DNA from: Ruminococcus sp.
GTDB lineage: Bacteria > Bacillota > Clostridia > Oscillospirales > Ruminococcaceae
Direction: 5' to 3'
NCBI GenBank assembly: GCA_015066665.1
Contig: SVNX01000020.1
Span: 1-44,240, forward strand
DNA length: 44,240 nucleotides
The translations under genes were made by a program, and so were the position numbers. A model generated the notes under the pieces. The model was not told where the DNA came from. It saw only the letters and a list, made by a program, of their open reading frames with translations, and searched no databases. Positions 15,773 through 44,089 of the stretch are shown piece by piece; position 1 is the stretch's first letter, and each line of letters begins with the position of its first letter.

Positions 15773-15803
15773 AAGCCGTCCTCGGGCAATTCCGGGACGG
15801 CTT
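15773..15803 (-). terminator. Terminator of the NYN gene
   Basis: A 9-bp stem AAGCCGTCC/GGACGGCTT has a 13-base loop and lies 14 bases after the stop. On the minus strand it is followed by ATTTTATG. The plus strand also shows TTTTT after the stem. Confidence 0.7.
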
Positions 15804-15816
15804 TTTCCGATACGCA

Positions 15817-16716: not shown

Positions 16717-16775
16717 TTGTTTCACCTCCTTATCAATTTGATCCGGTTGACACGCAGTACAGCCGGAATATACAA

Positions 16776-16821
16776 AAAATACTTGCTGGCGGCAAGTATT
16801 TTCCGGTCAGATCTGCTGACC
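16776..16821 (-). promoter_or_regulatory. Two-hairpin leader with attenuator-like terminator upstream of the NYN gene
   Basis: Transcription should start near 16820. The first hairpin is GGTCAG/CTGACC (16805-16821). The second is an 11-bp perfect stem (16776-16786 with 16792-16802) ending in six T on the minus strand, like a Rho-independent terminator. It lies about 57 bases before the start codon, inside the leader, so it could attenuate the gene. CCGGAA and TTCCGG on either side could extend the stem. Confidence 0.55.
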
Positions 16822-16826
16822 CATCT

Positions 16827-16855
16827 ATTATAGCACACAAATCCGGCTTTGTCAA
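16827..16855 (-). promoter_or_regulatory. Promoter of the NYN gene
   Basis: The minus strand has TTGACA (16850-16855), a 17-base spacer and TATAAT (16827-16832) preceded by TGC. Confidence 0.85.
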
Positions 16856-23738: not shown

Positions 23739-23770
23739 AAGTGCCCCCATTCGGGGGCACTTACATTTTT
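23739..23770. terminator. Bidirectional terminator
   Basis: A perfect 10-bp stem AAGTGCCCCC/GGGGGCACTT has a four-base loop, an A-run before it and TTTTT shortly after. It lies between the convergent kinase-like and ABC transporter genes. Confidence 0.9.
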
Positions 23771-25688
23771 ATTCAAGTTCAAATGCACCGGTATACAACC
23801 GATAGTAATTGCCTCGCTGGGCAATCAGCTCATCATGGCTGCCCTTTTCAATGATATGTCCATGGTCAAGCACCATGATCACATCGGAATTTTGTACCGT
23901 TGACAGACGATGTGCAATCACAAACACTGTTCTGCCTTTCATCAGGCCATCCATACCCTTCTGCACAAGTGCTTCGGTTCGGGTGTCGATGCTTGAAGTG
24001 GCCTCGTCCAGAATCATTACGGGCGGGTCGGCGACCGCAGCTCTCGCAATCGAAATCAGCTGACGCTGACCCTGCGACAGACCTGAGCCGTCACCCTCCA
24101 GCACGGTCTGGTAGCCGTCGGGGAGCATCTCGATGAAACCGTGGGCATTGGCGAGCTTTGCAGCGGCGATACATTCCTCATCGGTGGCATCGAGTCTGCC
24201 GTAGCGGATGTTGTCCATCACGGTACCCGTGAACAGGTTGACATCCTGCAGTACCACGCCAAGACTCCGGCGGAGGTCGCTCTTTTTGATCTTATTGATG
24301 TTGATGTCATCGTAACGAATCTTGCCGTCGGCGATATCGTAAAAACGGTTGATGAGGTTCGTGATGGTCGTTTTACCGGCACCTGTAGCACCGACAAAGG
24401 CCACCTTCTGACCGGGCTCGGCATAGAGACTGATATTATGCAGGACGATCTTCTCCTCCACATAACCAAAGTCCACATCAAAGAAACGCACATCGCCCTG
24501 CATGGGGGTGTAGGTAATCGTGCCGTCCCCGTGGGGATGCTTCCACGCCCAGAGGCCTGTACGGTGATCCGCTTCTGTCAGCTCGCCCTCACGGTACTCG
24601 GCATTGACCAGCGTCACATAGCCCTCATCCGGCTCCGGTTCTTCATCAAGAAGATCGAAGATCCGCTCTGCACCGGCCAGCGCCATTACCACAGCATTCA
24701 CCTGCTGGGCAATCTGCGTCACGGGCATATTGAAGGTCTTACTCAACTGAAGGAACGCCACAATGCCGCCCAGCTCCAGTCCGGAGATGCCGTTCACAGC
24801 AAGGAACCCACCGAAAATGGCGATCAAAGCATATTGCAGATGGCCGAGATTGCCCATGATGGGCATGAGGATGTTGGCAAATTTATTGGCCTGTGTGGCA
24901 TTTGTGCACAGCTCATCATTGAGCTTGTCGAAATCATTTTTAGCCTTTTCCTCGTGACAGAAGACCTTGATGACCTTCTGGCCCTCGATCATTTCCTCGA
25001 TATAGCCGTTGACATCACCGATGGATTTCTGCTGCTTGGCGAAATACTTTGCACTCTTGCCGCCGATTGTACCGGCCACAAACATCATCACAGCCACGGT
25101 CAGCAGCACAAACAGTGTCATCGGAATGCTGGTCACGATCATTGCTGTCAGTACGGAAACGATGGTGATCGCCGAAGAGAAGACCTGCGGAATACTCTGG
25201 GAAACCATCTGACGGAGCGTGTCGGTATCGTTTGTATATCGGCTCATCAGCTCACCATGCGTATGGGTATCGAAATACCGCAGCGGCAGCTTCTGCATAT
25301 GGGTGAACATCTCATCACGCACACGCTTCTGTACGCCCTGTGAAATGCCGACCATCAGAAAATTATGCAGCCATGTGGAAATCATACCGATCAGGTAGAC
25401 AAGGGCCATGGTACTGAGTGCACGGATCAGACCCGAAAAATCCGTATTGTTCTCACGCAGCATGGGGGTGATGTAGTCATCGATCAGCGTTTCAAGGAAC
25501 ACCGAACCAATGACGCCTGCCACGGAACTGAACACGATGCATACCAGAACAAGTGCAAACTGCACCTTAAACCTGAACAGATAGGAAAGCAGACGCTTGA
25601 AGGTTTTCTTGGCATCCTTTGCACCTTTTCCGGGCATGCCGGCAGGCATGCGGCCACGGCCGCCGGGCATTCTGTTAGGACCTGCCAT
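23769..25688 (-). CDS. ABC exporter half-transporter, catalytically complete (BmrD/LmrD-like)
   Basis: A protein of 639 residues with an N-terminal six-helix exporter domain (about 35-340) and an ATPase domain. The N-terminus carries a Gly/Pro/Met-rich extension. An insertion of about 45 residues between the two domains, including an AWKHPHGDG segment, is like that of LmrD/BmrD-type subunits. The ATPase has GATGAGKTT near residue 430, LSQGQRQ near 535, and ILDEATSS with the catalytic glutamate. It pairs with the gene upstream, which has Asp instead, so the two should form a heterodimer with one active site. It overlaps that gene by 14 bases. Likely cargo: drugs, lipids or peptides, under control of the MarR regulator. 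Confidence 0.92.
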   Translation of the reverse strand: MAGPNRMPGGRGRMPAGMPGKGAKDAKKTFKRLLSYLFRFKVQFALVLVCIVFSSVAGVIGSVFLETLIDDYITPMLRENNTDFSGLIRALSTMALVYLIGMISTWLHNFLMVGISQGVQKRVRDEMFTHMQKLPLRYFDTHTHGELMSRYTNDTDTLRQMVSQSIPQVFSSAITIVSVLTAMIVTSIPMTLFVLLTVAVMMFVAGTIGGKSAKYFAKQQKSIGDVNGYIEEMIEGQKVIKVFCHEEKAKNDFDKLNDELCTNATQANKFANILMPIMGNLGHLQYALIAIFGGFLAVNGISGLELGGIVAFLQLSKTFNMPVTQIAQQVNAVVMALAGAERIFDLLDEEPEPDEGYVTLVNAEYREGELTEADHRTGLWAWKHPHGDGTITYTPMQGDVRFFDVDFGYVEEKIVLHNISLYAEPGQKVAFVGATGAGKTTITNLINRFYDIADGKIRYDDININKIKKSDLRRSLGVVLQDVNLFTGTVMDNIRYGRLDATDEECIAAAKLANAHGFIEMLPDGYQTVLEGDGSGLSQGQRQLISIARAAVADPPVMILDEATSSIDTRTEALVQKGMDGLMKGRTVFVIAHRLSTVQNSDVIMVLDHGHIIEKGSHDELIAQRGNYYRLYTGAFELE

Positions 25689-27423
25689 CTTCGTCCCCTC
25701 CCTTCATCTGCGATGTATACACTTCACGATAGATCTCATTGGTCTTGAGCAATGTATCGTGCGTGCCCACAGCATCCACACAGCCGTCATTCATGACAAT
25801 GATCTGGTCAGCGTCTTCCACGGAGGAGATGCGCTGGGCGATAATAAACTTGGTGGTATCCGGAATTTCCTCACGGAACGCCTTGCGGATGAGGGCATCC
25901 GTTCTGGTATCCACCGCACTTGTGGAATCGTCCAGAATGAGAATCTTCGGCTTTTTGAGCAAGGCTCTGGCAATGCAGAGACGCTGCTTCTGTCCGCCGG
26001 ACACATTGCGGCCGCCCTGTTCGATGTGGGTATCATATCCATCGGGGAACTCTCTGATGAAACCGTCAGCCTGTGCAAGCTCGCAGGCGTGGATCAGCTC
26101 TTCATCGGTCGCATCGGGATTGCCCCAGCGGAGATTCTCCTTGATTGTGCCGGAGAAGAGAACGTTCTTCTGCAGAACCATGGCAACGCTGTCACGGAGC
26201 ACTTCCAGATCGTACTCACGGACATTCCGTCCGCCGACTCTGACTTCGCCCTTTGTGACGTCGTAAAGACGGGGAATCATCTGTACCAGTGTGGACTTGG
26301 CACTGCCCGTTCCACCGATGATGCCGATGGTCTGACCGGATGCAATCTTCAGATTCACATCACGGAGGCAGGGCTTGCCGGATTTATCGGAATAACTGAA
26401 CTCAACACCGGAAAATTCCACGGAGCCGTCCGGTACTTCTGTCACAGGTGCTTCCGGATTGGTAATTGTCGGTGCTTCCTCCAGAATCTCCACAATTCGC
26501 TCTGCCGATGCCTTGGACATGGTGATCATGACCAGAATCATAGACAGCATCATCAGGCTCATCAGAATCTGCATGACATAGGTGAACAGGCTTGTAAGAT
26601 CGCCGGTGGTCATTTCCGTACCGCCGCTCAAGACGATCATACGGGCACCCACCCAGGAAATCAGGAGCATGCAGCCATAGGAACACAGCTGCATCAGCGG
26701 GCCGTTGAAGGCAAGCAGACGCTCAGCCTTGCAGAAATCGTCATGAATCTTCCGGGAGACTTCTTTGAACTTCTGTTCCTCGTAATCCTCACGGACGAAG
26801 GATTTCACCACGCGGATGCCGTAGAGATTCTCCTGCACAACGCGGTTGAGCTTATCATAGGTCTTGAATACGCGGATGAAAATGGGATGGGCATGGGTGA
26901 TGATCAGACCCAGACCAATCGCCAGAACCGGTACGGCCAGCAGGAACACAAGCGCTGCCTTTGCATTGATGGTAAAGGCCATCACAATGGAGCTGATGAG
27001 CATGAAGGGGCTGCGCACCGCTGTGCGGATGATCATCTGATAGGCGTTCTGCAGATTCGTCACGTCCGTTGTCAGACGGGTGACAATGCTGGCTGTGGAG
27101 AATTTATCGATGTTGAAGAACGAGAAATTCTGCACGTTGTAGAACATATCCTGGCGCAGGTTTCTGGCGAAGCCCGCAGAACCCGAGGCGGCATATTTGC
27201 CGGCCAGTGCACCGCATGCCAGTGACAGCACACAGCAGATCACAAGGACAATGCCCATTTTTGTCACATACCCCATATCCCCCACATTGATGCCATGGTC
27301 GATGATCTTACCCATAATCCAAGGCATAAAGACCTCAAGGACAACCTCACCGCTGACAATGAGGGGGGCGAGGATGGAATCCTTTTTGTATTGCCGCACG
27401 GACTGCAGCAAGCGTTTCAGCAT
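25675..27423 (-). CDS. ABC exporter half-transporter with degenerate ATPase site (BmrC/LmrC-like)
   Basis: A protein of 582 residues: six membrane helices (about 15-310) and one ATPase domain. Walker A is GGTGSAKST near 366-374, with Ala in place of the usual Gly before Lys. The signature is VSGGQKQR near 470. Walker B ends LILDDSTSAVD, so an aspartate takes the place of the catalytic glutamate. This is the known non-canonical site of heterodimeric exporters such as BmrCD, LmrCD and TM287/288. AAGGAGG precedes the start. It lies 12 bases after marR and overlaps the second half-transporter, forming one operon. Confidence 0.93.
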   Translation of the reverse strand: MLKRLLQSVRQYKKDSILAPLIVSGEVVLEVFMPWIMGKIIDHGINVGDMGYVTKMGIVLVICCVLSLACGALAGKYAASGSAGFARNLRQDMFYNVQNFSFFNIDKFSTASIVTRLTTDVTNLQNAYQMIIRTAVRSPFMLISSIVMAFTINAKAALVFLLAVPVLAIGLGLIITHAHPIFIRVFKTYDKLNRVVQENLYGIRVVKSFVREDYEEQKFKEVSRKIHDDFCKAERLLAFNGPLMQLCSYGCMLLISWVGARMIVLSGGTEMTTGDLTSLFTYVMQILMSLMMLSMILVMITMSKASAERIVEILEEAPTITNPEAPVTEVPDGSVEFSGVEFSYSDKSGKPCLRDVNLKIASGQTIGIIGGTGSAKSTLVQMIPRLYDVTKGEVRVGGRNVREYDLEVLRDSVAMVLQKNVLFSGTIKENLRWGNPDATDEELIHACELAQADGFIREFPDGYDTHIEQGGRNVSGGQKQRLCIARALLKKPKILILDDSTSAVDTRTDALIRKAFREEIPDTTKFIIAQRISSVEDADQIIVMNDGCVDAVGTHDTLLKTNEIYREVYTSQMKGGDEDGRS

Positions 27424-30711: not shown

Positions 30712-30751
30712 ACAGATGCTGCAAAAAACGACTGCCATCGGCGGTATCTGT
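30712..30751 (+). promoter_or_regulatory. Structured leader element of unknown kind
   Basis: ACAGAT (30712-30717) can pair with ATCTGT (30746-30751). The inner hairpin ACTGCC-ATC-GGCGGT (30731-30745) stacks directly on the 3' strand, and an A-rich single-stranded stretch (30718-30730) lies on the 5' side. A short GC patch ending in seven T (30692-30710) precedes it. The start codon's AAGGAGG follows within ten bases. It does not fit a riboswitch consensus that I know. Confidence 0.35.
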
Positions 30752-30772
30752 ATAGAAAAGGAGGTTCCGGTT

Positions 30773-31996
30773 ATGAATTTAGTTTCATGTTTGAAATCGT
30801 TTTCGGCTGCCATCTGCGCAGCAGTACTTGGACTGACAGCAACCGGGATCGGAACACTCCCGGCTGAGGCTTCTGAAAGCACGGCACTGACGATTTCGGA
30901 AGTGCGTATTACAGAAGGCATCACAGAAGTAGCTGTGGATGTCACGATCGAAAACAATACGGATGGTTTTCTGGCCACATCATTCGGCATCGCTTATGAT
31001 ACAAGGCTGACATTCGACGAACTGGAATACGGCAATCGGGCCGGCATGACACATTATTATGCAAGCAATCCTTCCAAGGGCATTCTCTGGTTCAGCGGTG
31101 CGTCCGGTACGCCTTCCACTGTGGCCAACACAGATGAGGAAGTCATGTTCACCCTGAAGTTCACACTTCCCGAAAACAAAGCGATGGGCGATTACTATTC
31201 CGTGAATTTTTTCTGGAATGCACAGGACAACACGCAGGCCTACTGGTATCTGGATGACCATACCAATATCATCGGAAACATCCAGAGCCATGCCAAAAGC
31301 GGCGGCATCTCATTCCCAGACCCCAATGCACCTGTGCTGAGTCATAATTCCATTTCGCTTGGTATCGGCACCAGCAAAACCATTTCCATCACCAACTGCG
31401 ACTCCGTCAGCTGGTTCTCCGACAACACAAGTATTGCAGTAATTGAGAACGGTACGATCACGGGTATCGCTGAGGGTATATGTTATGTATATGCCTTCAC
31501 CGGCACGGAGATGCTCTCCTGTAAGGTAACGGTTTCGGAAGAAGCGACCTACAACATCACAGAGACGGATGTCATCTACATCAGGGATCCCGATCAGAAA
31601 GTACAGCTGCTCTATCCGGATAACACCCTCAATGTCACATGGATGTCCGACAACACGAGCGTTGTGACTGTAGCAAGTGACGGTCTTCTCACAGTCATCG
31701 GCAACGGCGTGGCAACCATTTATGCCACCTGCAACGGCGACATCCAGACCACGCGTGTCATTGTAGAGATTCCCGAACCTGTGGAAGGGCTCTGCGGTGA
31801 TGTCAATCAGGACGGCATCGTCAGCATTGTGGATGTCATCCAGATCAACCGGACGATTCTTGGCAGCGAGACGCTGACAACGGAACAGCAGGCTCTTGCC
31901 GATGCGTATCAGGACGGCACGGTCACCTCAAAGGACAGCCTGACCATTCTCAAGCATCTGGTTTCCCTGATTGAAACGCTTCCCATCACCCCGTAA
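30773..31996 (+). CDS. Secreted cohesin-like/BIG2/BIG2/dockerin protein (adaptor scaffoldin candidate)
   Basis: A protein of 407 residues. A signal peptide ends near residue 32 (PAEA). Residues about 35-180 look like a cohesin or a cohesin-like beta-sandwich: VDVTIENNTDGFLATSFGI at the start, a GILWFSGASG strand, and TLKFTLPENKAMGDY near the end. Two BIG2-type Ig domains follow, each with the (S/T)WxSDNTSxxxV motif. The C-terminus is a dockerin with loops DVNQDG and DAYQDG. One cohesin plus one dockerin is the form of adaptor scaffoldins such as ScaC of R. flavefaciens. AAGGAGG precedes the start at 30773. It is a single-gene unit with a strong promoter and terminator. The dockerin and BIG2 calls are firm; the cohesin call is moderate. 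Confidence 0.78.
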   Translation: MNLVSCLKSFSAAICAAVLGLTATGIGTLPAEASESTALTISEVRITEGITEVAVDVTIENNTDGFLATSFGIAYDTRLTFDELEYGNRAGMTHYYASNPSKGILWFSGASGTPSTVANTDEEVMFTLKFTLPENKAMGDYYSVNFFWNAQDNTQAYWYLDDHTNIIGNIQSHAKSGGISFPDPNAPVLSHNSISLGIGTSKTISITNCDSVSWFSDNTSIAVIENGTITGIAEGICYVYAFTGTEMLSCKVTVSEEATYNITETDVIYIRDPDQKVQLLYPDNTLNVTWMSDNTSVVTVASDGLLTVIGNGVATIYATCNGDIQTTRVIVEIPEPVEGLCGDVNQDGIVSIVDVIQINRTILGSETLTTEQQALADAYQDGTVTSKDSLTILKHLVSLIETLPITP

Positions 31997-32010
31997 ATTC
32001 AGATTCACAC

Positions 32011-32046
32011 AATCCCATGCAGAAACTGTTCTGCATGGGATTTTTT
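32011..32046 (+). terminator. Terminator of the cohesin-like/dockerin gene
   Basis: A perfect 13-bp stem (32011-32023 with 32030-32042) has a six-base loop and is followed by a T-run. Confidence 0.93.
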
Positions 32047-32063
32047 GTCCCTGTTCTGTCTAA

Positions 32064-32134
32064 CAAAAATATGTTCCGATTTTTGTGCAGATCCACAAAA
32101 ATGAAAACAATTCCGCTGTTTTTGTCAGGAATTG
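32064..32134. promoter_or_regulatory. Two inverted repeats upstream of the lipoprotein array
   Basis: CAAAAAT/ATTTTTG (32064-32070, 32079-32085) and CAATTCC/GGAATTG (32108-32114, 32128-32134) are perfect 7-base arms with 8- and 13-base spacers. No consensus promoter is seen between the terminator at 32011-32046 and the start at 32187, so these may mark a regulated promoter. Confidence 0.35.
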
Positions 32135-32186
32135 CCGTTCTGATGTGTATTAGGAGTGAAATCCAATCTGTTAAGGAGCGATCATT

Positions 32187-34412
32187 ATGAAAATACGAAT
32201 CCTTACCCTTCTCACCGCAGCTGCCATGACAGTATCCCTTTCTGCATGTGCACCCAAAGAAGCGTATGTGCCCTCCGGTGCAACCCTCGAGGTCAGCTTC
32301 GACCATTCCTATAAGTCCGCACCTCTCGAACCGGGTCTGATTCTCAGTCAGCCGGAATTCACCTTCGTGGGCGATGACATTTTCATCAAGGGCTATGACC
32401 ATACAGAATTCCACCGTTCCTTCGCACTTTACGACACCGCCGACGGCTCCTTCCACGACATCTGCGCTTATGCGGACGGTCAGACCGACAGCCGCTATAT
32501 CGATGTCATCGGCATGACGGAGAAGGACGGCCAGTACACAGCCACCTACAAGATCTCCGTTCCGGACGGCAGTGACTATGCGAATACCTATTATCAGGAG
32601 GTCTACGATGAGACACTTCAGGTCATTTCGGAAGAGGATATCACTGCACGTTTTCCGGAAAACATGGAAATGATCTACTGGACAAAAAACGGTGATAATT
32701 ACTATGGCATCGCCCTTGTGGATGGCATCACAAGGCTCTACTGCTTTGATGAAGACTATCAGGTGAAGGGCGAAATCAGCGGCGGCTTCTCGAATCCCCA
32801 CAGCCTGTTCGGCGATGCCTTCGGGAATGTGTACATCCTCTCCTACATCGGCTGTGCGAGCGTCTGCCGCCTCGATCCGGAGACACTGACAACGGAACCG
32901 GTCGAGGTAAACGGCATGCCGGAATGGCCGGGCAGAATCGTCCCCGGAGATGACAGCTGCCACTTTTATCTGTCCGATGAGACCGGCATCTTCGGTGTCA
33001 ATACAGATACACAGACGGTGGAAGAGATTGTGAACTGGAAGCATTCCGACTTCGACAGCTATGCCATATCGGAGTTTGCCGTGCTTCCGGACGGCGGCTT
33101 TCTTGCTGCGGAAAGTGCACATATGAATCCCAACAACATATCCTACTACAAGCTGACCGCACGCCCGCAGGAGGAGCTGTCCCAGATGAAGCTCATCACC
33201 ATGGCGGGTGTGGGCAACGGCATCGGTCTGCGGGATCTGGTGATTCTCTGGAACCGGCAGAGCACGGACAGCCGTATTGTGCTCTATGATTACGCCGAGG
33301 AGAACAGCGATCTGGAATGGAATGACAATCTGGAAAAATTCAAGAACGACCTCATCTCCGGAACAGTGCCCGACATCATCCAGCTCGACAGCAGCAGCTT
33401 TGCGCTTCTTGCAAACAAGGGCATTCTTGAGGACTTAAAGCCCTGGATGAAACAGGATGAGGATTTCTGCGAGGACGACTATCTGATGCATTTCTTTGAA
33501 GCACTCGAATACAAGAACACCCTGCCCCGCATGGCCTTCAGCTTTGATGTATATGCATTTATGGCCAAAACCGAATTCATCGGAGATAATACCTGCCTGA
33601 AGCCCGAAGACATCCCCGCTCTCGCAGAGAGTCTGCCCGAGGATATGTCGCTCTTCGGCAATACATCCAGAGAGTACGCCTACGAAATGCTCTGCCGAAG
33701 CAATCTTTCAGCCTTTGTCGATCCGGACACGGGAGAATGCACCTTCGACAGCAAGGCCTTCATTGATCTGCTCACATACTGCGGTACTTTGAAGGCAAAG
33801 GGCAGCAACTGGGGAAGCTACGATGAAATGATCTTCCGCCGAGATGGTGCTCTGCTGCAATACGACGGCTTGTTCTGCCCGTACAGCTATCATGGACACA
33901 AGGCGGGTGCCTTTGACAATGCCGATGTTTCCCTTGTGGGACTGGCCTCGATGGAGGAAAAAGGCAACGGCGGCCGCTTTACCGGCTTTGCGACGGTCGG
34001 CATGTGCCGGGAATCCCTTTACAAGGAAGAGATCTGGGAATTTTTCAAATTCTGTCTCTCCGAGGAAGTGCAGGATTCACTGCAGAACGACATGATTATC
34101 GGCATGCCCGTCAACCGTGCCTCCCTTGCGAAATATGCACAGAAGGCACTGGAAGAACCCGATCCTTCCAACGGCAATTCTTTCTTCGATATCGGAAACG
34201 AGGAGATCCCCCTTGGCCCTGCCACGCAGGAAGAGATGGATTTCTTCCTCGGTTACATCGAAGGCATCCGGTCCATGGATCTTTCCAACAATCACATTTC
34301 TGACATTATGGATGAGGAAGCGCAGATGTTCTTTGCCGGTGACCAGACCGCAGAACAGGCTGCCCAAAACATCCAGAGCCGTGTTTCACTCTATCTGAGC
34401 GAGCAGGAATAG
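32187..34412 (+). CDS. Propeller/solute-binding-like lipoprotein, array copy 1
   Basis: A protein of 741 residues. Lipoprotein signal with LSAC and the lipid cysteine at C21. The mature start has HSYKSAPLEPG, shared with copy 3. Residues about 40-325 have repeated short beta units such as DAFGNVYIL and LPDGGFLAAE, like blades of a beta-propeller. From about 335 (MKLITMAGVGNG) the sequence resembles family 1 extracellular solute-binding proteins: WNRQSTDSRIVLYDY, GTVPDIIQL, a KGILEDLKPWM hinge region, and YKEEIWEFFKFCLSEE near the end. It closes with GDQTAEQAAQNIQSRVSLYL. AAGGAGCG precedes the start. It heads four genes spaced by 16-22 bases. No permease or ATPase is present, so it may bind or sense rather than import. 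Confidence 0.8.
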   Translation: MKIRILTLLTAAAMTVSLSACAPKEAYVPSGATLEVSFDHSYKSAPLEPGLILSQPEFTFVGDDIFIKGYDHTEFHRSFALYDTADGSFHDICAYADGQTDSRYIDVIGMTEKDGQYTATYKISVPDGSDYANTYYQEVYDETLQVISEEDITARFPENMEMIYWTKNGDNYYGIALVDGITRLYCFDEDYQVKGEISGGFSNPHSLFGDAFGNVYILSYIGCASVCRLDPETLTTEPVEVNGMPEWPGRIVPGDDSCHFYLSDETGIFGVNTDTQTVEEIVNWKHSDFDSYAISEFAVLPDGGFLAAESAHMNPNNISYYKLTARPQEELSQMKLITMAGVGNGIGLRDLVILWNRQSTDSRIVLYDYAEENSDLEWNDNLEKFKNDLISGTVPDIIQLDSSSFALLANKGILEDLKPWMKQDEDFCEDDYLMHFFEALEYKNTLPRMAFSFDVYAFMAKTEFIGDNTCLKPEDIPALAESLPEDMSLFGNTSREYAYEMLCRSNLSAFVDPDTGECTFDSKAFIDLLTYCGTLKAKGSNWGSYDEMIFRRDGALLQYDGLFCPYSYHGHKAGAFDNADVSLVGLASMEEKGNGGRFTGFATVGMCRESLYKEEIWEFFKFCLSEEVQDSLQNDMIIGMPVNRASLAKYAQKALEEPDPSNGNSFFDIGNEEIPLGPATQEEMDFFLGYIEGIRSMDLSNNHISDIMDEEAQMFFAGDQTAEQAAQNIQSRVSLYLSEQE

Positions 34413-34434
34413 CCATTCACGAAAGGAGCACAAC

Positions 34435-36690
34435 ATGAAAAGACAGATTACAGCCATTCTGACCGCCGCACTGCTGTTGGGCAGCCTGACGGCATGCGAG
34501 ACAGAAAGCACCTCCTCCTTCACGAGCGAGGTGCAGTCCACTGAGGCGGCCATTTCACTGATGGAAGCAGCCACCTCCCAGTGGCTTATCACGGCCAAAG
34601 CACAGCCCAACGCCGTTCACCTTGCCGGAAACAAGATTTTCTGGAGCTATGGAGAGCCCTTCTCAATGAAAGTGGACGGCTTTGACATGGAAACCGGCAC
34701 GGCGCTTACCGCTCCCTTCTCCTCCCCCGCAGGGGAAGATGCACTTGCGACCATGATGCCGAACAGCATCACGGTATCTGAAGGGAACATTGTCTTCACC
34801 TACCGGATCCAGCGCATTGATGAAGCCAACGAATGGCTTGGCAATGCGTATTATCAGGACACCTATGCGCCCTCCATGGAGCTGCTTGAACGCCGGGAAC
34901 TGTTTGCGACGGATGAGGCAGATTCTGCCTTCGACAAATTCTGTCCCGATGGAAACGGCGGCTGGTATGCCACGAAATTCGTGGACGGCTCCGAGCAGAT
35001 CGTCCAGCTCGACAGTGCCTTCCGGCAGACGGGAACCATCACCGGCCCCGTGCTCTATGCCGATGCCCTGTACCCCATGCCGGATGGCCGTGTCTATGTC
35101 CGTTATCACGAACAGATGGGAGGGTCCGGCATCCCGCAGCTCGGCGTATTCGATGCAGAATCCATGCATCTCACGCCCGTCAGTCCCTCGGGCATGCCGC
35201 AGACACTGCGGGGGGTATGCAGCGACGGCCAGACAATGTATGTATTCGATGACAAGGGCATCTATGCACTGAGTGATACCGCCTGCACCATGGTCGTGGA
35301 CTTCCTGACCGCCAATTTCAACGGCAGCAGCGTAAGCTCTGTGAACGCCCTTGCGGATGGGAGCTTTGTGCTGGGGACTGCGAATGCAGACTATTCCGAA
35401 ATAGAATTCTGGCATCTGGAGCGTGCCGAGCCGAATCAGGAGATGCAGACCATCGTCCTTGCGGGACGTTTGTTCAATGATGATGTGAAAAATGCTGTGA
35501 ATCGCTATAACCGAGCAAACAGCGATTACCGCATTGAAATCAAGGACTACAGTGCTGACGAATCCGAGGACATGGGGCAGGCGGCGTTCGAGACCGATCT
35601 GCTCGCAGGCGACCTGCCGGACATGATCTACTGGAACGGCCTCAGCTTTGAAAAGATCGCAAGAAAGGGCATCTGCGAGGATCTATATCCCTATATGGAA
35701 CAGGAGGGCTGCTTCACGGACGACCACTACTTCATGAATTTCTTCGAATCCATGGAGTATGAAGACCGGATGCTGCGGATCGGTTTTTCCTTCAGCATCG
35801 ACACGCTTGCAGGCAAAACGGAATTCGTCGGCGAAGAGCAGGGGCTGGATTATGCCGCCTTCCGTGAGATGATGCAGTCGAGACCCGAGGGCATGGATCT
35901 CTTCTGCGATATGAACAGCTCCTGGGCACTCTCCTATCTCTGCGTGCCGAGTCTTTCGCAGTTCATGGATACCCAAACAGCCGAATGCCGCTTTGATTCG
36001 CCGGAATTCATCGAGCTGCTGCGCATCGGTGAGGGCTACCCGAGCTTCGATGAGCTGATGCTGTACGAACAGTCACTGACGGATGAGGAACGCCTTGTCT
36101 ACTTTGAAAACCGGCATAATCAGCTACGCAACAATACAGTGCTGTTCCATCGAAACTCCATCTCCGACCCCTTTCAGTGGCACCACATTACTGCGGGAGA
36201 ATTCGGCGGAGCGCCTGTGACCTTTGTGGGCTATCCGACCAGCACGGGCAATGGCGGCCGCTTCCTTGTCTATGATCAGATTTCCATGGTCTCCTCGTCC
36301 GAACACAAGGAGCAGATCTGGGATTTCATCCTGTCCATGCTGAGCGAATCCAGTCAGAAAAGCATGATCGGCGGCCTGCCCGTTCACCGCGGCGTAATGG
36401 AAGAACGGATGCAGGCGGCCATGCGTCCCCTGCCCGAGGATCAGTCTGGTTTTTCCAGAGCGTGGGTGGATCAGGACGGCGCCCATCCCATCGGGGATGC
36501 GACACAGGCGGAGATGGATGCGTTTCTCTCCTATGTGGAGGGCATCCGCAGCTGCAATGATACGGATCCGGCCGTGCTGAACATTTTCTGGGAGGAAGCG
36601 GATATATACCTCGCAGGTGACCAGACCCCCGAACAGGCTGCCCAGAACATCCAGAGCCGTGTTTCGCTCTATCTGAGCGAACAATCCTGA
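34435..36690 (+). CDS. Propeller/solute-binding-like lipoprotein, array copy 2
   Basis: A protein of 751 residues. The lipobox LTAC gives C21, the same position as in the other copies. It lacks the SYxSxxL segment found just after the cysteine in copies 1, 3 and 4, and has a Ser/Thr/Glu-rich linker instead. The propeller-like half spans about 50-335 (for example PDGRVYVRY and LADGSFVLG). The solute-binding-like half starts near MQTIVLAGRLFNDD, with NRYNRANSDYRIEIKDY, GDLPDMIYW and KGICEDLYPYM. The tail is GDQTPEQAAQNIQSRVSLYL. It is the most divergent copy at the N-terminus. It lies 22 bases after copy 1, with GAAAGGAG before its start. Confidence 0.8.
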   Translation: MKRQITAILTAALLLGSLTACETESTSSFTSEVQSTEAAISLMEAATSQWLITAKAQPNAVHLAGNKIFWSYGEPFSMKVDGFDMETGTALTAPFSSPAGEDALATMMPNSITVSEGNIVFTYRIQRIDEANEWLGNAYYQDTYAPSMELLERRELFATDEADSAFDKFCPDGNGGWYATKFVDGSEQIVQLDSAFRQTGTITGPVLYADALYPMPDGRVYVRYHEQMGGSGIPQLGVFDAESMHLTPVSPSGMPQTLRGVCSDGQTMYVFDDKGIYALSDTACTMVVDFLTANFNGSSVSSVNALADGSFVLGTANADYSEIEFWHLERAEPNQEMQTIVLAGRLFNDDVKNAVNRYNRANSDYRIEIKDYSADESEDMGQAAFETDLLAGDLPDMIYWNGLSFEKIARKGICEDLYPYMEQEGCFTDDHYFMNFFESMEYEDRMLRIGFSFSIDTLAGKTEFVGEEQGLDYAAFREMMQSRPEGMDLFCDMNSSWALSYLCVPSLSQFMDTQTAECRFDSPEFIELLRIGEGYPSFDELMLYEQSLTDEERLVYFENRHNQLRNNTVLFHRNSISDPFQWHHITAGEFGGAPVTFVGYPTSTGNGGRFLVYDQISMVSSSEHKEQIWDFILSMLSESSQKSMIGGLPVHRGVMEERMQAAMRPLPEDQSGFSRAWVDQDGAHPIGDATQAEMDAFLSYVEGIRSCNDTDPAVLNIFWEEADIYLAGDQTPEQAAQNIQSRVSLYLSEQS

Positions 36691-36706
36691 CCGGAAAGGA
36701 GCACAT

Positions 36707-38923
36707 ATGAAACACAAACTGACTTCCCTTCTGCTTGCCGCAGCATTGTTTGCAGGAATGACCGGATGCTCGAAGCCTGCGCCAACCGGCAGTACGCTCA
36801 CAGTGCCCGTTGAACATTCCTACAAATCCGCCCAGCTTGACATGACGCTCGGACGGGTTGACCATTCCCTGCCGCTCGGGGATGACCTTCTGCTTTTTGA
36901 CCGCCGTGAGACGGACACGGCGGCAAACTACCATGTGCTCCGCTTCGATGCATCCGAAAACGAACTGGCTGAAATCCCCCTGACAATGCCGGAGCTGCAG
37001 GATGGTACCTATCACAGCGTAATACAGGTACAGAAGGCGGCGGACGGCTTCACTGTCATCTATGGCATCACCGGCGGTGAAAGTCTCCCCTATTGTGTGC
37101 AGTCGTGGTATGATGCGGACTGCACTTTGAAGAGAACCGAAAAGCTGCCGGCCGATGCACAGGAGGTTTCTCTTTTTGCCGGCGTCTGGCAGGATACAAA
37201 AGGGCATTACCTGACTTACGGCAACGATGATGCCGGTTTTCAGGTGCTGCGTGTATTCGATGCGGATTTTCGGGAAACCGGCATGATTTCCGATCAGATC
37301 GCCTATTACAACGGCGTGGTCATCGGAGCGGACGGCACGCTGTACCTTGCCTATGCTGATACGAATGACGGGCATCACTTCGCCGAGATCAACGCCTCAG
37401 AACATACGCTGCGCAAGTTTCCGGTTTCCGGTCTTGAAAAGGGCTGGTACGGCATTTCTTCCGGCAGCGGTGAATATGACTTCTATTTCCACAATGATGA
37501 CGGCCTCTACGGCGTGACGGTGGAAAGCGGCGTACCGGTGCCGCTGATCAACTGGAAAAATTCCGATTTTGAAGGGCACATGATCAACCATGCCGCCATG
37601 CTTGCGGATGGACGCTGTCTCATCACGCTCATGGATTATGAAACGGGCATATCGGAAATCTGGCTGCTCTCCAGACGCACCGAAGAAGAGCTTGCGAATA
37701 TGAAATGCATCACCATGGCGACCATGGGCTGCTATGGCACACTGCTCGACAGCGTGTACGAATACAATCGCTCCCACGCCGACAGCCGCATTATGCTGTA
37801 TGAATACCAGCAGTTCAACACGGAGGAAGACCCCGATGCCGGCATTGCCAAGTTCAAGCAGGACATGACGGACGGTCTTGTGGCGGACATCATCTGCACG
37901 GACGAGCTGCCGTTTGAGATGCTCGCCAACAAGGGCATGTTCGAGGATCTGACGGGCTATATGAAGGCGGATGAGCGTTTTCAGGAGGAAGACTTCTACA
38001 TGAATTTCCTCGATGCGCTGTCCTATGGCGGCAAGCGTCAGCGGATTGCCTTTGACTTCGGCATACGCACTCTTGCGGCACGCTCCGCACATGTCGGCGC
38101 ACGGACGGGCTATACGGCAAAGGAATTTGCCGCCCTGACCGCATCGCTGCCGGATGACCGGAAGGCCTTCTGCTGGATCAACAAGCAGACGGCACTCGAG
38201 GAATTCTGCATGTACAATCTCAGCAGCTTTGTCGATGTGAAGAAGGGAACGTGCCGGTTTGATTCCGATGATTTCATCTCCCTTCTGGAGCTTTGCGACA
38301 CCTGGGAGAACGGTGCCTATTTTTCGGAGCTTGCATTTGAAGAAAAGATCCCGATCGCCGCTGAGCGTGAAGACAGCATCCTGCGGGATGAAAGCGTATT
38401 CTGGACGGAGTATCTCTATTCCCCCTACGGCTACCACGCCCTCATTGCAGGAACATTCGGCGGCGAGGATGTGACGCTGACAGGCTTTCCAAAGGGCACG
38501 GATGCCGGAAACGGCGGCGTCTTCCAGACGGAGAATGTCCTTGCTATGTGCAGCCAGTCGCTCTATAAGGACGAAATCTGGGACTTTTTCATGCTCCAGC
38601 TGAGCGAGGAGAAGCAGTCCATGAGCGGCTTTCCCGTCCGGCGCAGCAGCATGGAAAAAGCCATGCAGACGGCACTTGACTTTGATGACGGCACGACCTA
38701 TGTCGGAAGCCGTGAAGTGAAGATCGGCCCCGCCACGCAGGAAGAAATGGACGAGATGGCAGCCTATATCGAAGGCATCACCGTGTGTGATTATTACAAC
38801 GAGGAGATCTGGCAGGTCGTACGCGAGGAAGCGGACATGTACTTTGCCGGTGACCAGACCGCTGCACAGGCCGCAGAGAAAATTCAGGGCCGTGTGAGCC
38901 TCTATCTGAGCGAGCAGTCCTGA
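36707..38923 (+). CDS. Propeller/solute-binding-like lipoprotein, array copy 3
   Basis: A protein of 738 residues with lipobox MTGC at C21 and the HSYKSAQLDM segment after it. The N-terminal half has blade-like repeats (IGADGTLYLAY; LADGRCLIT). The C-terminal half starts near MKCITMATMGCYG, then YEYNRSHADSRIMLYEY, GLVADIICTDELPFEMLANKG with a hinge region FEDLTGYM, and YKDEIWDFFMLQLSEE. The tail is GDQTAAQAAEKIQGRVSLYL. GTDAGNGGVF near 605 equals the xGNGGRF segment of the other copies. It follows copy 2 by 16 bases, with GAAAGGAG before the start. Cargo unknown. Confidence 0.8.
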   Translation: MKHKLTSLLLAAALFAGMTGCSKPAPTGSTLTVPVEHSYKSAQLDMTLGRVDHSLPLGDDLLLFDRRETDTAANYHVLRFDASENELAEIPLTMPELQDGTYHSVIQVQKAADGFTVIYGITGGESLPYCVQSWYDADCTLKRTEKLPADAQEVSLFAGVWQDTKGHYLTYGNDDAGFQVLRVFDADFRETGMISDQIAYYNGVVIGADGTLYLAYADTNDGHHFAEINASEHTLRKFPVSGLEKGWYGISSGSGEYDFYFHNDDGLYGVTVESGVPVPLINWKNSDFEGHMINHAAMLADGRCLITLMDYETGISEIWLLSRRTEEELANMKCITMATMGCYGTLLDSVYEYNRSHADSRIMLYEYQQFNTEEDPDAGIAKFKQDMTDGLVADIICTDELPFEMLANKGMFEDLTGYMKADERFQEEDFYMNFLDALSYGGKRQRIAFDFGIRTLAARSAHVGARTGYTAKEFAALTASLPDDRKAFCWINKQTALEEFCMYNLSSFVDVKKGTCRFDSDDFISLLELCDTWENGAYFSELAFEEKIPIAAEREDSILRDESVFWTEYLYSPYGYHALIAGTFGGEDVTLTGFPKGTDAGNGGVFQTENVLAMCSQSLYKDEIWDFFMLQLSEEKQSMSGFPVRRSSMEKAMQTALDFDDGTTYVGSREVKIGPATQEEMDEMAAYIEGITVCDYYNEEIWQVVREEADMYFAGDQTAAQAAEKIQGRVSLYLSEQS

Positions 38924-38940
38924 CCTGAAAGGAGTTCATT

Positions 38941-41163
38941 ATGAAAAAACAAATTCTCTCCCTCATTACCGCCGTTATGATGGGCTTCTCACTCATCGGA
39001 TGTGAGAAGAAGCCCACCGGCAGCACAATGGAAATGCCGCTGGAACTTTCCTATGCCAGCACCCAGCTCTTTACGGATTACTATGAGCCGGTTCCCTTCT
39101 GCGTGACCGGAAACTGGATTCTGGCGGCCGAATCCAACGGCAAAACCAATTCCGTCATCGCCTATAACACTGAAACCGGTGAAAACATCGAACCCGAACT
39201 GCAGAATGAAAAAGCGCTGAATGACGGCTTCTACGCCACCTGCTGGTGGGCACAGGCCACGGAGGACGGCGGTCTCATGCTGCTGTCAAACGAATACAAG
39301 ATGCGGGGCTTTAACTACACGGATATCCATCATTTCATGGACTACTATGACGCCGAGCTGAATTTCAAGGAGCGCGTGCCGCTGCCGGATACCTTCCTCC
39401 CCGATACGGGCACAATCAATCAGGATTATCTCCTCATGGATGGGCAGGGCTATTTCTATAGCCTTGATAGCGGATCCTGCTGTCTGATCGTCTTTGATGC
39501 AGAGTTTCAAAAACTGGGTGAAATCGTTTTGCCCGGCTCCAATGTGCATGAACTGTTCCTTGATGCCCAGGGGCGTGCCCATGCTTCCGTCTTCACTTTT
39601 GACGAGAAGACTTACGAAACCGATCTGTCCTGCTACGCACTCGATCCCGTTGCTCTGGGCTATGAACGGCTGTCAGGCTCCCTGCCCACGCAAAACAACG
39701 TAAGCATTGCAGACGGATTGGGCGAGGACAGCTACTACTATTCGCATGACAACGGCATTTTCAGCAAGAATCACGACGGCGCATCGGAAAAGGTGGTCGA
39801 CTGGGTCAATTCCGATTTTACGCCGGGTTCCGTAGCCACCGTCTACAGCCTGCAGGACGGCCGCTTCCTCACTGTCAGCTATGGCCACATCTCACCGACC
39901 GGTACCCCGTCCACCAAGCCGGAAGCCTGGCTGCTCCGCCCCCGCACGGAGGAGGAGATTGCTGCCATGACATTTGTGAGCCTTGCGGCACTCAATGCCA
40001 ATGCAGACCTGGTCGAGACCATTGTCCGCTTCAACCGCAGTTCTGATGGCACACGCATCGTCATCCGTGACTATGCCGAGTACAACGAGAATTATGACGA
40101 CAAGACGGGCTATGAAATGTTCAAGCAGGATCTGCTTGACGGCGTGATCGCAGACATCATCTGCACGGACGGTCTGCCCTTCTTCAGTCTCTCAAACAAG
40201 GGCATGTTTGCCGATCTGAATGACTTCATGGAAGCTGACGAAAGCTTTCACGAAGAGGACTATATCATGAATTTCTTCGAGTCGATGGAAAACGGCGGAC
40301 GGCTTGAGCGCATTGCATTCAGCTATTCCGTGCTGACGACGGCTGCCAAGACCGAGCATGTCGGCACGGAGCAGGGCATTTCAATGGAAGACTACCTCGC
40401 CCTTGCCGAGAATCATCCGGCCGGCAGCACACTCATGACGCCCATGGACAAAGACATGGTATTCTGGAATTTTCTCGGTGCCATGCAGAACTGCTATATT
40501 GATACAAGTACCATGACCTGCCGCTTTGACAGCCCCGATTTTGTCCGGTTTCTTGGGCTGATCAAAAAGATCGCCGAGGAGGGCGAGCTGATCATGAGCA
40601 GTCAGGCGAACCTCGATGCCTACTGGAACACCCATCGCTTCCCCTACAGGGATGATGCCGCACTGATCGACCCGCTCTATATTTTTGCACCGATCCGTCT
40701 GCATGAGACCCTTGTCACCGATTTCGGCTCGGCAGAGACAACACTCATCGGCTATCCCCTCCCGTACGAGGACAGCAACGGCGGCATGTTCTCGCCGACC
40801 TTTACGCTTTCCATCAACAGCCAGTCCCTCCATCAGGAAAGAATCTGGGCATTCATGCGTAACCTCCTTCAGGATGACCATCAGAATCAGACAAATCTCC
40901 CCGTGAAGCGTTCCGCTCTGGAAAAGCAGCTCGTGGCGGCACAGCATATGCCCATGGCCACGGGCGGCAGTGCATCGGAGAGTGAAATGAATCTGCTGCG
41001 TGACTACATTGACGGCATCCGTGTGTGCTATTTTCAGGATGACACAGTCTACAATATCCTCGCAGAGGAAACGGACAAATATCTCGCCGGTGACTGCACC
41101 GCCGAGGATGCGGCCCGTGTGATCCAGAACCGTGTCAGCATTTATCTGAGCGAACAGGGCTAA
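38941..41163 (+). CDS. Propeller/solute-binding-like lipoprotein, array copy 4
   Basis: A protein of 740 residues with lipobox LIGC at C21 and the LSYASTQL segment that matches SYKSAxL of copies 1 and 3. Blade-like units include LDAQGRAHASVF and LQDGRFLTVS. The solute-binding-like half starts near MTFVSLAALNAN, with VRFNRSSDGTRIVIRDY, GVIADIICTDGLPFFSLSNKG and the hinge FADLNDFM. The tail is GDCTAEDAARVIQNRVSIYL, with Cys where the other copies have Gln. It follows copy 3 by 17 bases and ends at a strong terminator, closing the array. Confidence 0.8.
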   Translation: MKKQILSLITAVMMGFSLIGCEKKPTGSTMEMPLELSYASTQLFTDYYEPVPFCVTGNWILAAESNGKTNSVIAYNTETGENIEPELQNEKALNDGFYATCWWAQATEDGGLMLLSNEYKMRGFNYTDIHHFMDYYDAELNFKERVPLPDTFLPDTGTINQDYLLMDGQGYFYSLDSGSCCLIVFDAEFQKLGEIVLPGSNVHELFLDAQGRAHASVFTFDEKTYETDLSCYALDPVALGYERLSGSLPTQNNVSIADGLGEDSYYYSHDNGIFSKNHDGASEKVVDWVNSDFTPGSVATVYSLQDGRFLTVSYGHISPTGTPSTKPEAWLLRPRTEEEIAAMTFVSLAALNANADLVETIVRFNRSSDGTRIVIRDYAEYNENYDDKTGYEMFKQDLLDGVIADIICTDGLPFFSLSNKGMFADLNDFMEADESFHEEDYIMNFFESMENGGRLERIAFSYSVLTTAAKTEHVGTEQGISMEDYLALAENHPAGSTLMTPMDKDMVFWNFLGAMQNCYIDTSTMTCRFDSPDFVRFLGLIKKIAEEGELIMSSQANLDAYWNTHRFPYRDDAALIDPLYIFAPIRLHETLVTDFGSAETTLIGYPLPYEDSNGGMFSPTFTLSINSQSLHQERIWAFMRNLLQDDHQNQTNLPVKRSALEKQLVAAQHMPMATGGSASESEMNLLRDYIDGIRVCYFQDDTVYNILAEETDKYLAGDCTAEDAARVIQNRVSIYLSEQG

Positions 41164-41170
41164 GCCCCCT

Positions 41171-41197
41171 CCCCGACCTGCCGGTCGGGGATTTTTT
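41171..41197 (+). terminator. Terminator of the lipoprotein array
   Basis: A perfect 8-bp stem CCCCGACC/GGTCGGGG (41171-41178, 41183-41190) has a four-base loop and is followed by six T. Confidence 0.93.
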
Positions 41198-41217
41198 CGC
41201 ATTCTTCACGAATATTA

Positions 41218-41246
41218 TTGACAAAGTGTGAAAAGTATGCTACAAT
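41218..41246 (+). promoter_or_regulatory. Promoter of the HEFAH/dockerin gene
   Basis: TTGACA (41218-41223), a 17-base spacer and TACAAT (41241-41246) preceded by TGC. The leader to the start at 41279 is about 27 bases. Confidence 0.85.
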
Positions 41247-41278
41247 TTACATATCAATATTTTATTCAGGGAGGAATT

Positions 41279-44089
41279 ATGAAAATGAAGAAGAACACAA
41301 ACTGGAAGCGCACGGCCGCATGGCTTTGTGCTGCTGTCATCTGCTTCGGGGGGAGCAGTGCAGCACAGACCGCTTCCGCAATCAGCATCGACCGTACGGA
41401 GCAGACGGTTTCACAGGCCGCCGCATTGCTCACCCGTGACGTTCTCTGCCAGAATCAGAGCGGCGTCAACTACTGGGAATCCGAGCATTTCCAGTTCATC
41501 TGGGGCAGCTACGGCACGGACAGCGGCAGAGTCACACAGGAATTCCTGGAGGGCAATGCACGTCACCTTGAAGCCTGCTGGGATGTTTACATGAATGAGC
41601 TGCAGATGGCACCGCCCACGCAGTCCGTCAACATGTCCCTGCGTGACGGCAACGAGTACAAGACAAACATCTACATCTCCGGCACGGGTCTGGAGGCCTT
41701 TACTGACGACTGGGCCTACATGTCCTACGATTCCGGCGGCTTCGGCTTCATGTTCTGCTGCGTGGACGCCATGGCCTACAATACACCCTCCTGGGTTATG
41801 CCGCATGAATTTGCCCATGTTGTGACTGCGCATCAGCTCGGCTGGAATGAAAACAAGTACACCTATGCATGGTATGAGACCATGGGCAACTGGTTCCGTG
41901 AGCAGTTCCTCTATTCGGACTACTACAGTCCCTGGGTGGACTCTGTCGGCGGTACGGATTTCTTCGAAACCTATATGAAGAATCTCTGCTTTACCTTCCC
42001 CTTCGGACGTGATTACTATGCCGCATGGCCGTTCTTACAGTATCTGACAGAAAATCCGGATCAACTGGAGGGCTATGGCACGGACTTCGTCAAGACCATG
42101 CTCCAGCAGGGACAGGTGGATGAATATCCGCTTTCCATGATCGATCGTCTCGCACCGGCGGATATGAAGGACACACTCGGTCACTTTGCAAAGCGCATGG
42201 CTACGCTCGACCTTGCGCAGCAGGACCGCTATCGGGCTCGCCTCAATCAGCTCTATCAGACGGGCGAATGGAACTGGGGCGAAATCTACACCATCCTCGA
42301 GCAGAGTACGGATAATGCCAATTACTACACCGTGCCCACAGAACGTGCTCCCCAGCAGGCCGGTATGAATCTCGTGCCGCTCACTGTGACGGGCGATGCC
42401 ATTTCTGTAACACTGCAGGGGCTGACGGATGTGCAGGGTGCGGACTGGAGAGCCTGCATTGCCATCGAGCAAAGTGACGGCACAACCCGCTATTCCGATC
42501 TGTTCCGCTCCGGCGAGACCATGCAGATGGCATGGAATGCCGGCAGTGACATTCAGGCCTATCTGACTGTTGTGGCGACCCCCGATACCGATACTTATGT
42601 GAAGGTGGGTCTCCCCTACGGCGAAGGCTCCGAATTTGAGGAGCGCAATTATCCGTTCGATTCCAAGACAAGATATCCGTATGCTGTGACCATCACAGGC
42701 GCAGAAATGCAGCATGTCCGCAATAACAGCGGCTTTGCACAGGGCAGCTATCATCCGAACGGCGGCGGATTTGTGGCATCCACAGCTTCCGTTGACGCCA
42801 GTGTCTATGTCGGCCCGAATGCAAAGGTTCTGGGCTGGGCTACGGTATCCGGCAATGCTGTCATTGATGATTATGCCATTGTCAGCGGCAGCGCAAATGT
42901 ATCCGGCAATGCCATTGTCAGCGGCCATGCTGTTGTAGCGGAGCGTGCTGTCATCCGTGACAACGCCATCGTCACCGATTATGCCGGCGTGATGGGCAAT
43001 GCGATCGTGAGCGACTATGGCAGAGTGGTGGAAAGCGGTCTGATCTACAATGATTACACCGTCAGCGGCAATGCAACAGTAAAGGGCGTGGCCTTCTGTA
43101 TGGCAAGGGGCTCCCTCTCCGGTCAGGCCATTGCGGACGGTGACTACTACGATGACGGCAATAAGGCCGTATCCGCAGGTACGGTGTATGGCTGGGTTTC
43201 CCCCGAGAGCTATGCATCCTCCCGTCCCTATACGGACGGCCTGTATGTTGGCTATGAATTCGCTGAAAACAGCACACTGCTTGCGAAAGACACCTTCACC
43301 TCCACCTATGGCGTGATGCAGAATGCACCGCTCTGGGAAACTGTCCGCACAAGCGGACAGGGCGTTCTGACCTTCAACGGCAAGGATCAGTATATGATCG
43401 CTGACAGTGCTATGGCTGCGTTCCATGACATCGACATCCAGACCGCCGTGCTCTGGCGGGGCGGCAGTGATCAGCGCATTTTCCATTTTGGCAATGCGGA
43501 AAAGTACATGTATCTGACCACCGCCGGCTCCGGTGATACGCTTGAATTCGTCATCAATGACGGCAGCGGTGAGCAGCGTCTGAGCGCAAATTCCGCACTC
43601 ACAGCGGGCGAATGGGCAACCGTCAGCGTGGTGCTCACAGGCGACACCGGCAAGCTCGTTCTGAACGGTCAGACTGCAGCCGAGGGCAGCATTACGGCCG
43701 ATCCCGTAGACGTGGTTTCTGCGGATGCCAAGTACTACATCGGCAGGGGCCTTGACGGCCAGTATTTCAAGGGTTCGATGGACTTCTTCCGTGTGAACTT
43801 CAAGGAAGTGGCTGAACCGACCTACTACTACAGTGAAACCGAGGATGTCGAGATTGATGCACCCGTCAGTGAAACGGCACGCATCGGCGACCTGAACCGT
43901 GACAGAAAGATCAACGGCTTTGACCTTGGCATCCTGAAGAAGGGCCTGTTTGATCAGGATTACTACGATCCCTTCGTCGATTGCAATCAGGACGGCACCT
44001 TCTCCATCGTGGATGCGGTGGCCATGCAGAAATATCTGCTGGGTCTCGGCAGCGAATGGATCGGTACGGAAATGACCATTACCGAATAA
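41279..44089 (+). CDS. Secreted DUF6055-like metallopeptidase candidate with beta-helix, LamG and dockerin
   Basis: A protein of 936 residues. A signal peptide ends near residue 38 (TASA). Residues about 60-350 resemble DUF6055 and contain HEFAH (176-180), an HExxH zinc site; acidic residues in YETMGNW, some 20 residues on, could be the third ligand. Residues about 500-625 are a run of hexapeptide repeats (for example GNAVID, GNAIVS, DNAIVT) expected to form a left-handed beta-helix. Residues about 655-855 look like a LamG/concanavalin-type sandwich (FNGKDQYM, GEWATVSVVL, YYIGRGLDG). The end is a dockerin with loops DLNRDR and DCNQDG. GGGAGG lies five bases from the start. It is likely a docked extracellular protease or polymer-binding enzyme; the substrate is unknown. 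Confidence 0.85.
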   Translation: MKMKKNTNWKRTAAWLCAAVICFGGSSAAQTASAISIDRTEQTVSQAAALLTRDVLCQNQSGVNYWESEHFQFIWGSYGTDSGRVTQEFLEGNARHLEACWDVYMNELQMAPPTQSVNMSLRDGNEYKTNIYISGTGLEAFTDDWAYMSYDSGGFGFMFCCVDAMAYNTPSWVMPHEFAHVVTAHQLGWNENKYTYAWYETMGNWFREQFLYSDYYSPWVDSVGGTDFFETYMKNLCFTFPFGRDYYAAWPFLQYLTENPDQLEGYGTDFVKTMLQQGQVDEYPLSMIDRLAPADMKDTLGHFAKRMATLDLAQQDRYRARLNQLYQTGEWNWGEIYTILEQSTDNANYYTVPTERAPQQAGMNLVPLTVTGDAISVTLQGLTDVQGADWRACIAIEQSDGTTRYSDLFRSGETMQMAWNAGSDIQAYLTVVATPDTDTYVKVGLPYGEGSEFEERNYPFDSKTRYPYAVTITGAEMQHVRNNSGFAQGSYHPNGGGFVASTASVDASVYVGPNAKVLGWATVSGNAVIDDYAIVSGSANVSGNAIVSGHAVVAERAVIRDNAIVTDYAGVMGNAIVSDYGRVVESGLIYNDYTVSGNATVKGVAFCMARGSLSGQAIADGDYYDDGNKAVSAGTVYGWVSPESYASSRPYTDGLYVGYEFAENSTLLAKDTFTSTYGVMQNAPLWETVRTSGQGVLTFNGKDQYMIADSAMAAFHDIDIQTAVLWRGGSDQRIFHFGNAEKYMYLTTAGSGDTLEFVINDGSGEQRLSANSALTAGEWATVSVVLTGDTGKLVLNGQTAAEGSITADPVDVVSADAKYYIGRGLDGQYFKGSMDFFRVNFKEVAEPTYYYSETEDVEIDAPVSETARIGDLNRDRKINGFDLGILKKGLFDQDYYDPFVDCNQDGTFSIVDAVAMQKYLLGLGSEWIGTEMTITE

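Follow-up and report, generated by a model that had tools for sequence, protein, structure and literature searches.

Four tandem propeller-binding protein lipoproteins of a Ruminococcus sp. as candidate receptors of a CbpC-type ABC importer whose core is encoded elsewhere in the genome

The window analysed here, the whole stretch of 44,240 bp, is a complete contig (C11) from the genome of a fibre-degrading Ruminococcus sp. of the gut, an assembly of 2.03 Mb that is 77% complete. On its forward strand, at 32187-41163, lie four head-to-tail ORFs separated by gaps of 22, 16 and 17 bases, all four frames being open and full length, and about 3 kb remains between the end of the array and the contig end at 44240. 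The features of the region are as follows.

30716..31996, + strand: flanking secreted protein with Big_2 and type I dockerin domains (Pfam)
32011..32042, + strand: terminator-like hairpin separating the array from the dockerin gene upstream of it; consensus match, 14 pairs
32187..34412, + strand: candidate receptor 1, lipoprotein of 741 aa; predicted propeller at about residues 30-329, solute-binding protein (SBP) part 336-741 (ORF, N- and C-half profiles)
34435..36690, + strand: candidate receptor 2, lipoprotein of 751 aa; predicted propeller 46-333, SBP 339-751 (ORF, N- and C-half profiles, Pfam)
36707..38923, + strand: candidate receptor 3, lipoprotein of 738 aa; predicted propeller 27-327, SBP 334-738; the copy with a structure model
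38941..41163, + strand: candidate receptor 4, lipoprotein of 740 aa; predicted propeller 26-338, SBP 345-740 (ORF, N- and C-half profiles)
41170..41191, + strand: terminator-like hairpin 3' of the array; 9 pairs, 7 of them GC, then TTTTTT
41218-41246: promoter-like site before the 41228..44089 gene; 11 of 12 bases
41228..44089, + strand: flanking secreted protein with DUF6055, LamG-like and type I dockerin domains (Pfam)

Terminator-like sites also occur by chance (15 in the 12 kb scanned versus 9.4 +/- 3.3 in shuffled sequences), and promoter-like sites were rarer in the region than in shuffles. The ORF coordinates bear out the original prediction of four tandem genes of 738-751 residues with gaps of 16-22 bases. 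Its description of the neighbourhood stands in that no permease was found among the six genes filling 30716-44089; the remark that no ATPase is nearby was loosely worded, because an ABC exporter half-transporter pair, apparently unrelated to the array, sits 4.8 kb upstream on the opposite strand (23769-27423). Among the neighbouring genes scanned with Pfam no kinase, sigma factor or other sensor partner was recognized, nor was any polysaccharide-active enzyme domain in the two flanking dockerin genes. The 41228-44089 product also includes a hexapeptide-like part, and its matches to the NCBIfam Svx/AvrXca model are far under cut-off. A DUF4434 protein with a dockerin (4429-5769) is a possible further cellulosome-type component of the window.

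The lipobox cysteine is residue 21 in each of the four proteins, as had been noticed, and is invariant in an 82-row family alignment as well. The tail AGD.T...AA..IQ.RVS.YLSEQ, claimed to be the same in all four, proved on sequence comparison to be common to them. The C-terminal halves had been likened to family 1 SBPs, and this is confirmed by profile and, for gene 3, by fold. Pfam SBP_bac_1 exceeds its cut-off in proteins 1 (1.3e-6) and 2 but not in 3, where the match is sub-threshold; protein 4 lacks it and has no Pfam match of its own at E <= 1. Protein 1 also has a sub-threshold SGL match (2.3e-5). The family profiles match all four proteins in both the C-half (E <= 7.4e-136) and the N-half (E <= 4.6e-60), partly by construction as they were built from the window and related proteins. 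A model of gene 3 (82 sequences, pLDDT 90.9, pTM 0.89) has the SBP fold from about residue 333. The cognate permease pair expected of SBP_bac_1 members in the same operon does not occur among the six genes of 30716-44089; some relatives have one. Hints of flagellin (FliC_D2, E 0.058) and lectin (CV39L, E 0.049) domains were dropped.

The N-terminal half, originally described as beta-rich and blade-like, is by profile and model a predicted beta-propeller of repeated four-stranded blades. A profile of 47 N-halves matched 35 PDB chains at E <= 0.01, all of which we take, by name or otherwise, to be propellers or designed propellers. Those called Cake, Bagel, Scone and WRAP we take to be designed propellers or blade fragments, and five rows named only 'Cell surface protein' presumably belong with the Bagel series, judging from their entry codes. 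Comparing the N-half with itself revealed repeats offset by about 54, 106 and 150 residues (best E 3.8e-9), and the strand list of the gene 3 model gives some six blades of four strands within residues 39-323, ahead of the SBP fold, a count read from strands and not from geometry. The fold comparison of this model returned a list filled by SBP matches, uninformative on the N-half. Since Pfam is nearly silent on the 47 N-halves (one family, SGL, in one member), the propeller claim rests on the profile, the repeats and the model.

The two halves are modular, because relatives' arrays, in the loci compared with the N- and C-half profiles, include standalone genes for an SBP alone (468-527 aa) and for lipoproteins that consist of a propeller alone (328-329 aa). 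This supports the original view that a propeller module distinct from the binding-protein fold is joined to it, with variation between copies. The propeller-only lipoproteins (L118:7785-8774, 329 aa; L121:8743-9729, 328 aa) close the big arrays in two relatives.

Window copies 2-4 share 32-36% identity with copy 1. Between the window paralogues the N-halves are 18-24% identical versus 34-44% for the C-halves. In 12 orthologue pairs the N/C divergence ratio is 1.0-2.4, and since the bias is seen between orthologues too it need not mean diversification on duplication; judging from these sequences the propeller may simply be faster-evolving. In a tree of the SBP half (57 rows, with good support for 34 of the 54 inner branches and a long-branch warning from the program) window gene 3 groups with an array member of G016 (99/99). 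Gene 1 groups, on long branches (98/97), with one of the two genes that make up a separate array in G013; no close orthologue appeared among these rows for genes 2 and 4. Array members of four relatives (G007, G008, G013, G016) form long-lived orthologous groups in this tree, which together with the 32-36% identity rules out a recent gene amplification. The 'fourfold amplification' thus stands as four related copies, and not as a recent event.

The claim that the array is without a transporter is not supported. In three relatives (G007, G008, G016) an array of 7, 8 and 8 full-length receptors, respectively, among the matches listed lies directly downstream of genes for MalF, MalG, an HlyD-type fusion protein and a MacB core-domain protein, here called the core. 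A genome-wide search of the window's own genome located this core together with an SBP-only receptor on contig C8 and two further receptors on C24, besides the four on C11; the single MalK-type ATPase match is on C39. The C8 locus keeps the right flank that follows the G008 array, namely a MatE transporter (78% identity) and a dockerin protein (62%). By Pfam the C8 core consists of BPD_transp_1 twice, HlyD/biotinyl-lipoyl and MacB_PCD. Its MacB-like protein is 354 aa long with two predicted membrane helices and only MacB_PCD above cut-off; the L116 copy is alike, all five copies checked have two predicted helices each, and complete MacB-domain ORFs range from 344 to 587 aa across loci. Profiles of the core proteins match MacB and YknZ in the case of the MacB-domain protein, and MacA and EmrA among others in that of the fusion protein, whose middle part has a mean of 271 residues (range 153-419, n=35) with 4.3% proline plus glycine.

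The linkage of receptors to the core was surveyed in 76 loci, some of them overlapping, which were the best by similarity to the receptors among 397 confirmed. All four core parts were found in 29 of the 76; at least one was present in 39, and none in 37, of which 13 have more than 3 kb on both sides. Where an HlyD-MacB pair occurs, a receptor is directly next in 32 of 35 cases, in loci that had been chosen for having a receptor; these neighbour counts depend on a simple gene caller. Adjoining one core is a gene (L141:5774-7645) whose 623-aa product combines a GGDEF domain with a LacI-like sugar-binding domain, and in L147 the corresponding place (14961-16832) is taken by a gene that is equally long and begins similarly. 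A SpoIVB-like neighbour looks incidental.

A receptor match is found in 37 of the 38 genomes of the genus among the matches listed, three of these matches being weak (G003, 7e-14; G020, 7e-4; G035, 6e-5). The MacB-domain protein is matched in 31 of 38, including 12 of 12 genomes that are at least 90% complete, and the fusion protein, at E <= 1e-20, in 33 of 38. Among the matches listed, 30 genomes thus have a receptor and the MacB domain, seven a receptor only (G003, G004, G010, G021, G031, G035 and G036, all less than 90% complete) and one, the 63% complete G028, the core only. The fusion protein is present in G010 and G021 despite the missing MacB-domain match; G036, at 89% completeness, has at least ten receptor matches and no MacB-domain match. 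One core of this type was detected in nearly all genus genomes that have any (a single MacB-core-domain match in 29 of 31), one core meaning one match to this model, which more distant cores would escape; the exceptions are G018, whose two matches are fragments, and G019, whose second match has an E of 8.9e-5.

Core loci were examined in 24 of these 31 genomes; three end too soon and 21 are assessable. A receptor adjoins the core in seven (G007, G008, G012, G013, G016, G037 and the window's own genome, G000, where it is SBP-only), and at 14 of the 21, each with 2 kb or more of downstream sequence, none of the three genes called after the core is a receptor (for G017 the count starts at the fusion protein). 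The original prediction held that a permease pair just outside the cluster in relatives would make this an ordinary importer. Such a pair exists in G007, G008 and G016, yet the importer does not look ordinary, because its permeases come with HlyD-type and MacB-core-domain proteins and 14 of the 21 core loci have no adjacent receptor. Ten genomes were fully scored, setting aside 13 matches of E >1e-4 that are confined to the signal-peptide end of the profile (its first 37-126 positions). Eight of them (G001, G005, G006, G009, G014, G015, G025 and G029) have one receptor (E < 1e-60) and one core on different contigs, while G030 and G033 have two receptors.

At the family level a receptor match (E <= 1e-100) occurs in 26 of 198 genomes and the MacB-domain protein (E <= 1e-50) in the same 26, a co-occurrence with a hypergeometric probability of 4e-33, uncorrected for kinship or linkage; the cut-offs were chosen once the gap was apparent, and scoring was limited to at most 5 and 10 candidates per genome, respectively. 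Weaker matches in other family genomes may be more distant versions. In the class, the MacB-domain protein is found in 36 of 392 genomes at E <= 1e-20 and in 60 at 1e-8. In G057 (L173-L175), from a distant family, a core of this kind is surrounded by several binding proteins resembling CbpC, some of them arranged in tandem.

In 10 of the 22 genus loci tested a receptor gene lies head to head with a gene for a PL11 rhamnogalacturonan lyase, and these ten include all eight one-receptor genomes, so that in several sister species the sole receptor found is paired with this enzyme. The PL11 catalytic domain was seen in six (G001, G005, G006, G009, G015, G030); in G011, G014, G025 and G029 the DNA examined covers just the N-terminal 300-400 residues, which are 59-82% identical to the L015 PL11 protein.

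From the established gene layout, folds, homology and core count, and from the linkage to the core in some relatives and to PL11 in others, we consider it probable (about 0.6) that the four genes encode receptors of a CbpC-type ABC importer that share the single core of the genome in trans. The lipoproteins would be anchored in the membrane, with the C-terminal half docking on the MalF/MalG-type permease, and the propeller would serve as a fast-evolving recognition or positioning module holding the receptor near its polymer or an enzyme. Having no transporter of their own, they would use the core on C8, which would draw its energy from a shared ATPase of the MsmX/MalK type whose gene lies elsewhere. 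Each copy would probably capture a different plant cell-wall oligosaccharide and hand it over to the core. More tentatively, and with considerable doubt, we suggest that the fusion protein is used here for import, with a tube of this protein and a MacB-like collar on the one MalF/MalG core of each genome reaching into the thick wall, and a genome-wide set of exchangeable receptors, their genes adjoining the matching polysaccharide lyases or grouped in arrays, delivering different large oligosaccharides; that its middle part is a long hairpin extending into the wall is speculation.

It is conceivable, though we think it unlikely, that the fusions serve surface recognition or sensing, binding glycans and holding them near the cell or signalling, and feed no importer. 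The receptors have no core part next to them in the window, nor in the 37 core-free loci, 13 of which have ample sequence on both sides, and the related CbpC has a blocked pocket and no transport phenotype in the portions of PMC9601137 available to us. Against this reading, relatives have the receptors in a row with permeases, with all four core parts in 29 of the 76 loci, receptor and core co-occur across the family, and the neighbours scanned contain neither a kinase nor a sigma factor domain.

That the core is an export or envelope-assembly machine, its HlyD and MacB parts acting outwards and the binding proteins handing over or chaperoning cargo, we regard as quite improbable. The matches to MacB, MacA and EmrA favour it, as does an ABC ATPase gene (241 aa) directly after the MacB-domain gene in G025; this ATPase is probably SufC, because the next gene resembles a SufB/SufD relative by eye. 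The permeases, however, are of the importer type BPD_transp_1, the five MacB-like proteins checked have two predicted helices, MacB_PCD is the sole match above cut-off in the two that were scanned, and in ten genomes receptors adjoin polysaccharide lyases. We give even less credence to an importer of the ordinary kind that lost its permease or had it moved elsewhere, leaving copies without a specific role. The C8 locus, with the right flank of G008 but only an SBP-only gene, favours it; four open, full-length frames and the long-lived orthologous groups in four relatives speak against leftovers.

If receptors sharing a core in trans is the right reading, it would explain orphan binding proteins in dockerin-bearing gut Firmicutes, and would offer a function and candidate ligands, pectin fragments, for the family of transporter C of C. 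thermocellum, whose role is disputed. It would also be a case of HlyD/MacB-type parts cooperating with an importer, and with one core and many receptors the specificity could be read from the enzyme gene adjoining each receptor.

Among known systems, MalE and YesO (the latter for rhamnogalacturonan in B. subtilis) are family-1 (CUT1-type) oligosaccharide binding proteins, normally with one binding protein per permease pair; to our knowledge this type has neither a propeller nor a fusion-protein or MacB-domain partner. Export systems of the MacA-MacB and HlyD/EmrA types resemble the present one in the homology of the fusion protein and the MacB core domain. They differ in that the MacB-like protein here, in the copies checked, shows no ATPase and only two predicted helices and is joined to importer-type permeases; neither the ATPase nor the FtsX-type membrane domain of a MacAB-type exporter was recognized in the C8 and L116 copies. 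In the literature searched we found no title or abstract describing propeller-SBP fusions or such cores.

The closest known system is that of CbpC. According to the parts of PMC9601137 consulted, C. thermocellum has five sugar transporters, mutants of transporter C show no growth defect on glucose, cellobiose or Avicel, and CbpC bound none of the sugars tested, a loop blocking its pocket, although binding had been reported by an earlier study that the paper cites. Genes named 'acra' and 'hp' appear in the legend to its Fig. 1. The portion of PMC8303734 available gives the operon as Cthe_2125-2128 and quotes glucose binding. Genome G302 has a 100% match to CbpC over 201 aa. On one strand it carries CbpC and, beyond a gap of 1.1 kb, MalF, MalG, the fusion protein, called as a pair of ORFs, and the MacB-domain protein. 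A CbpC-like tail fragment of 66 residues upstream of CbpC (L172:10348-10548) is likely the remnant of an old duplicate. Because the CbpC genome carries these genes in this order, the core as a gene cluster is not new; the sections seen of PMC9601137, PMC8303734, PMC3492117, PMC9045158 and PMC4300822 do not describe it as a distinct kind. The window proteins are homologous to CbpC and their genome encodes such a core, on C8. CbpC itself (PDB 7x0o; a 460-aa ORF) has no propeller and adjoins its own core, whereas the candidate receptors of the window are propeller fusions, arranged in a tandem array and located away from the core.
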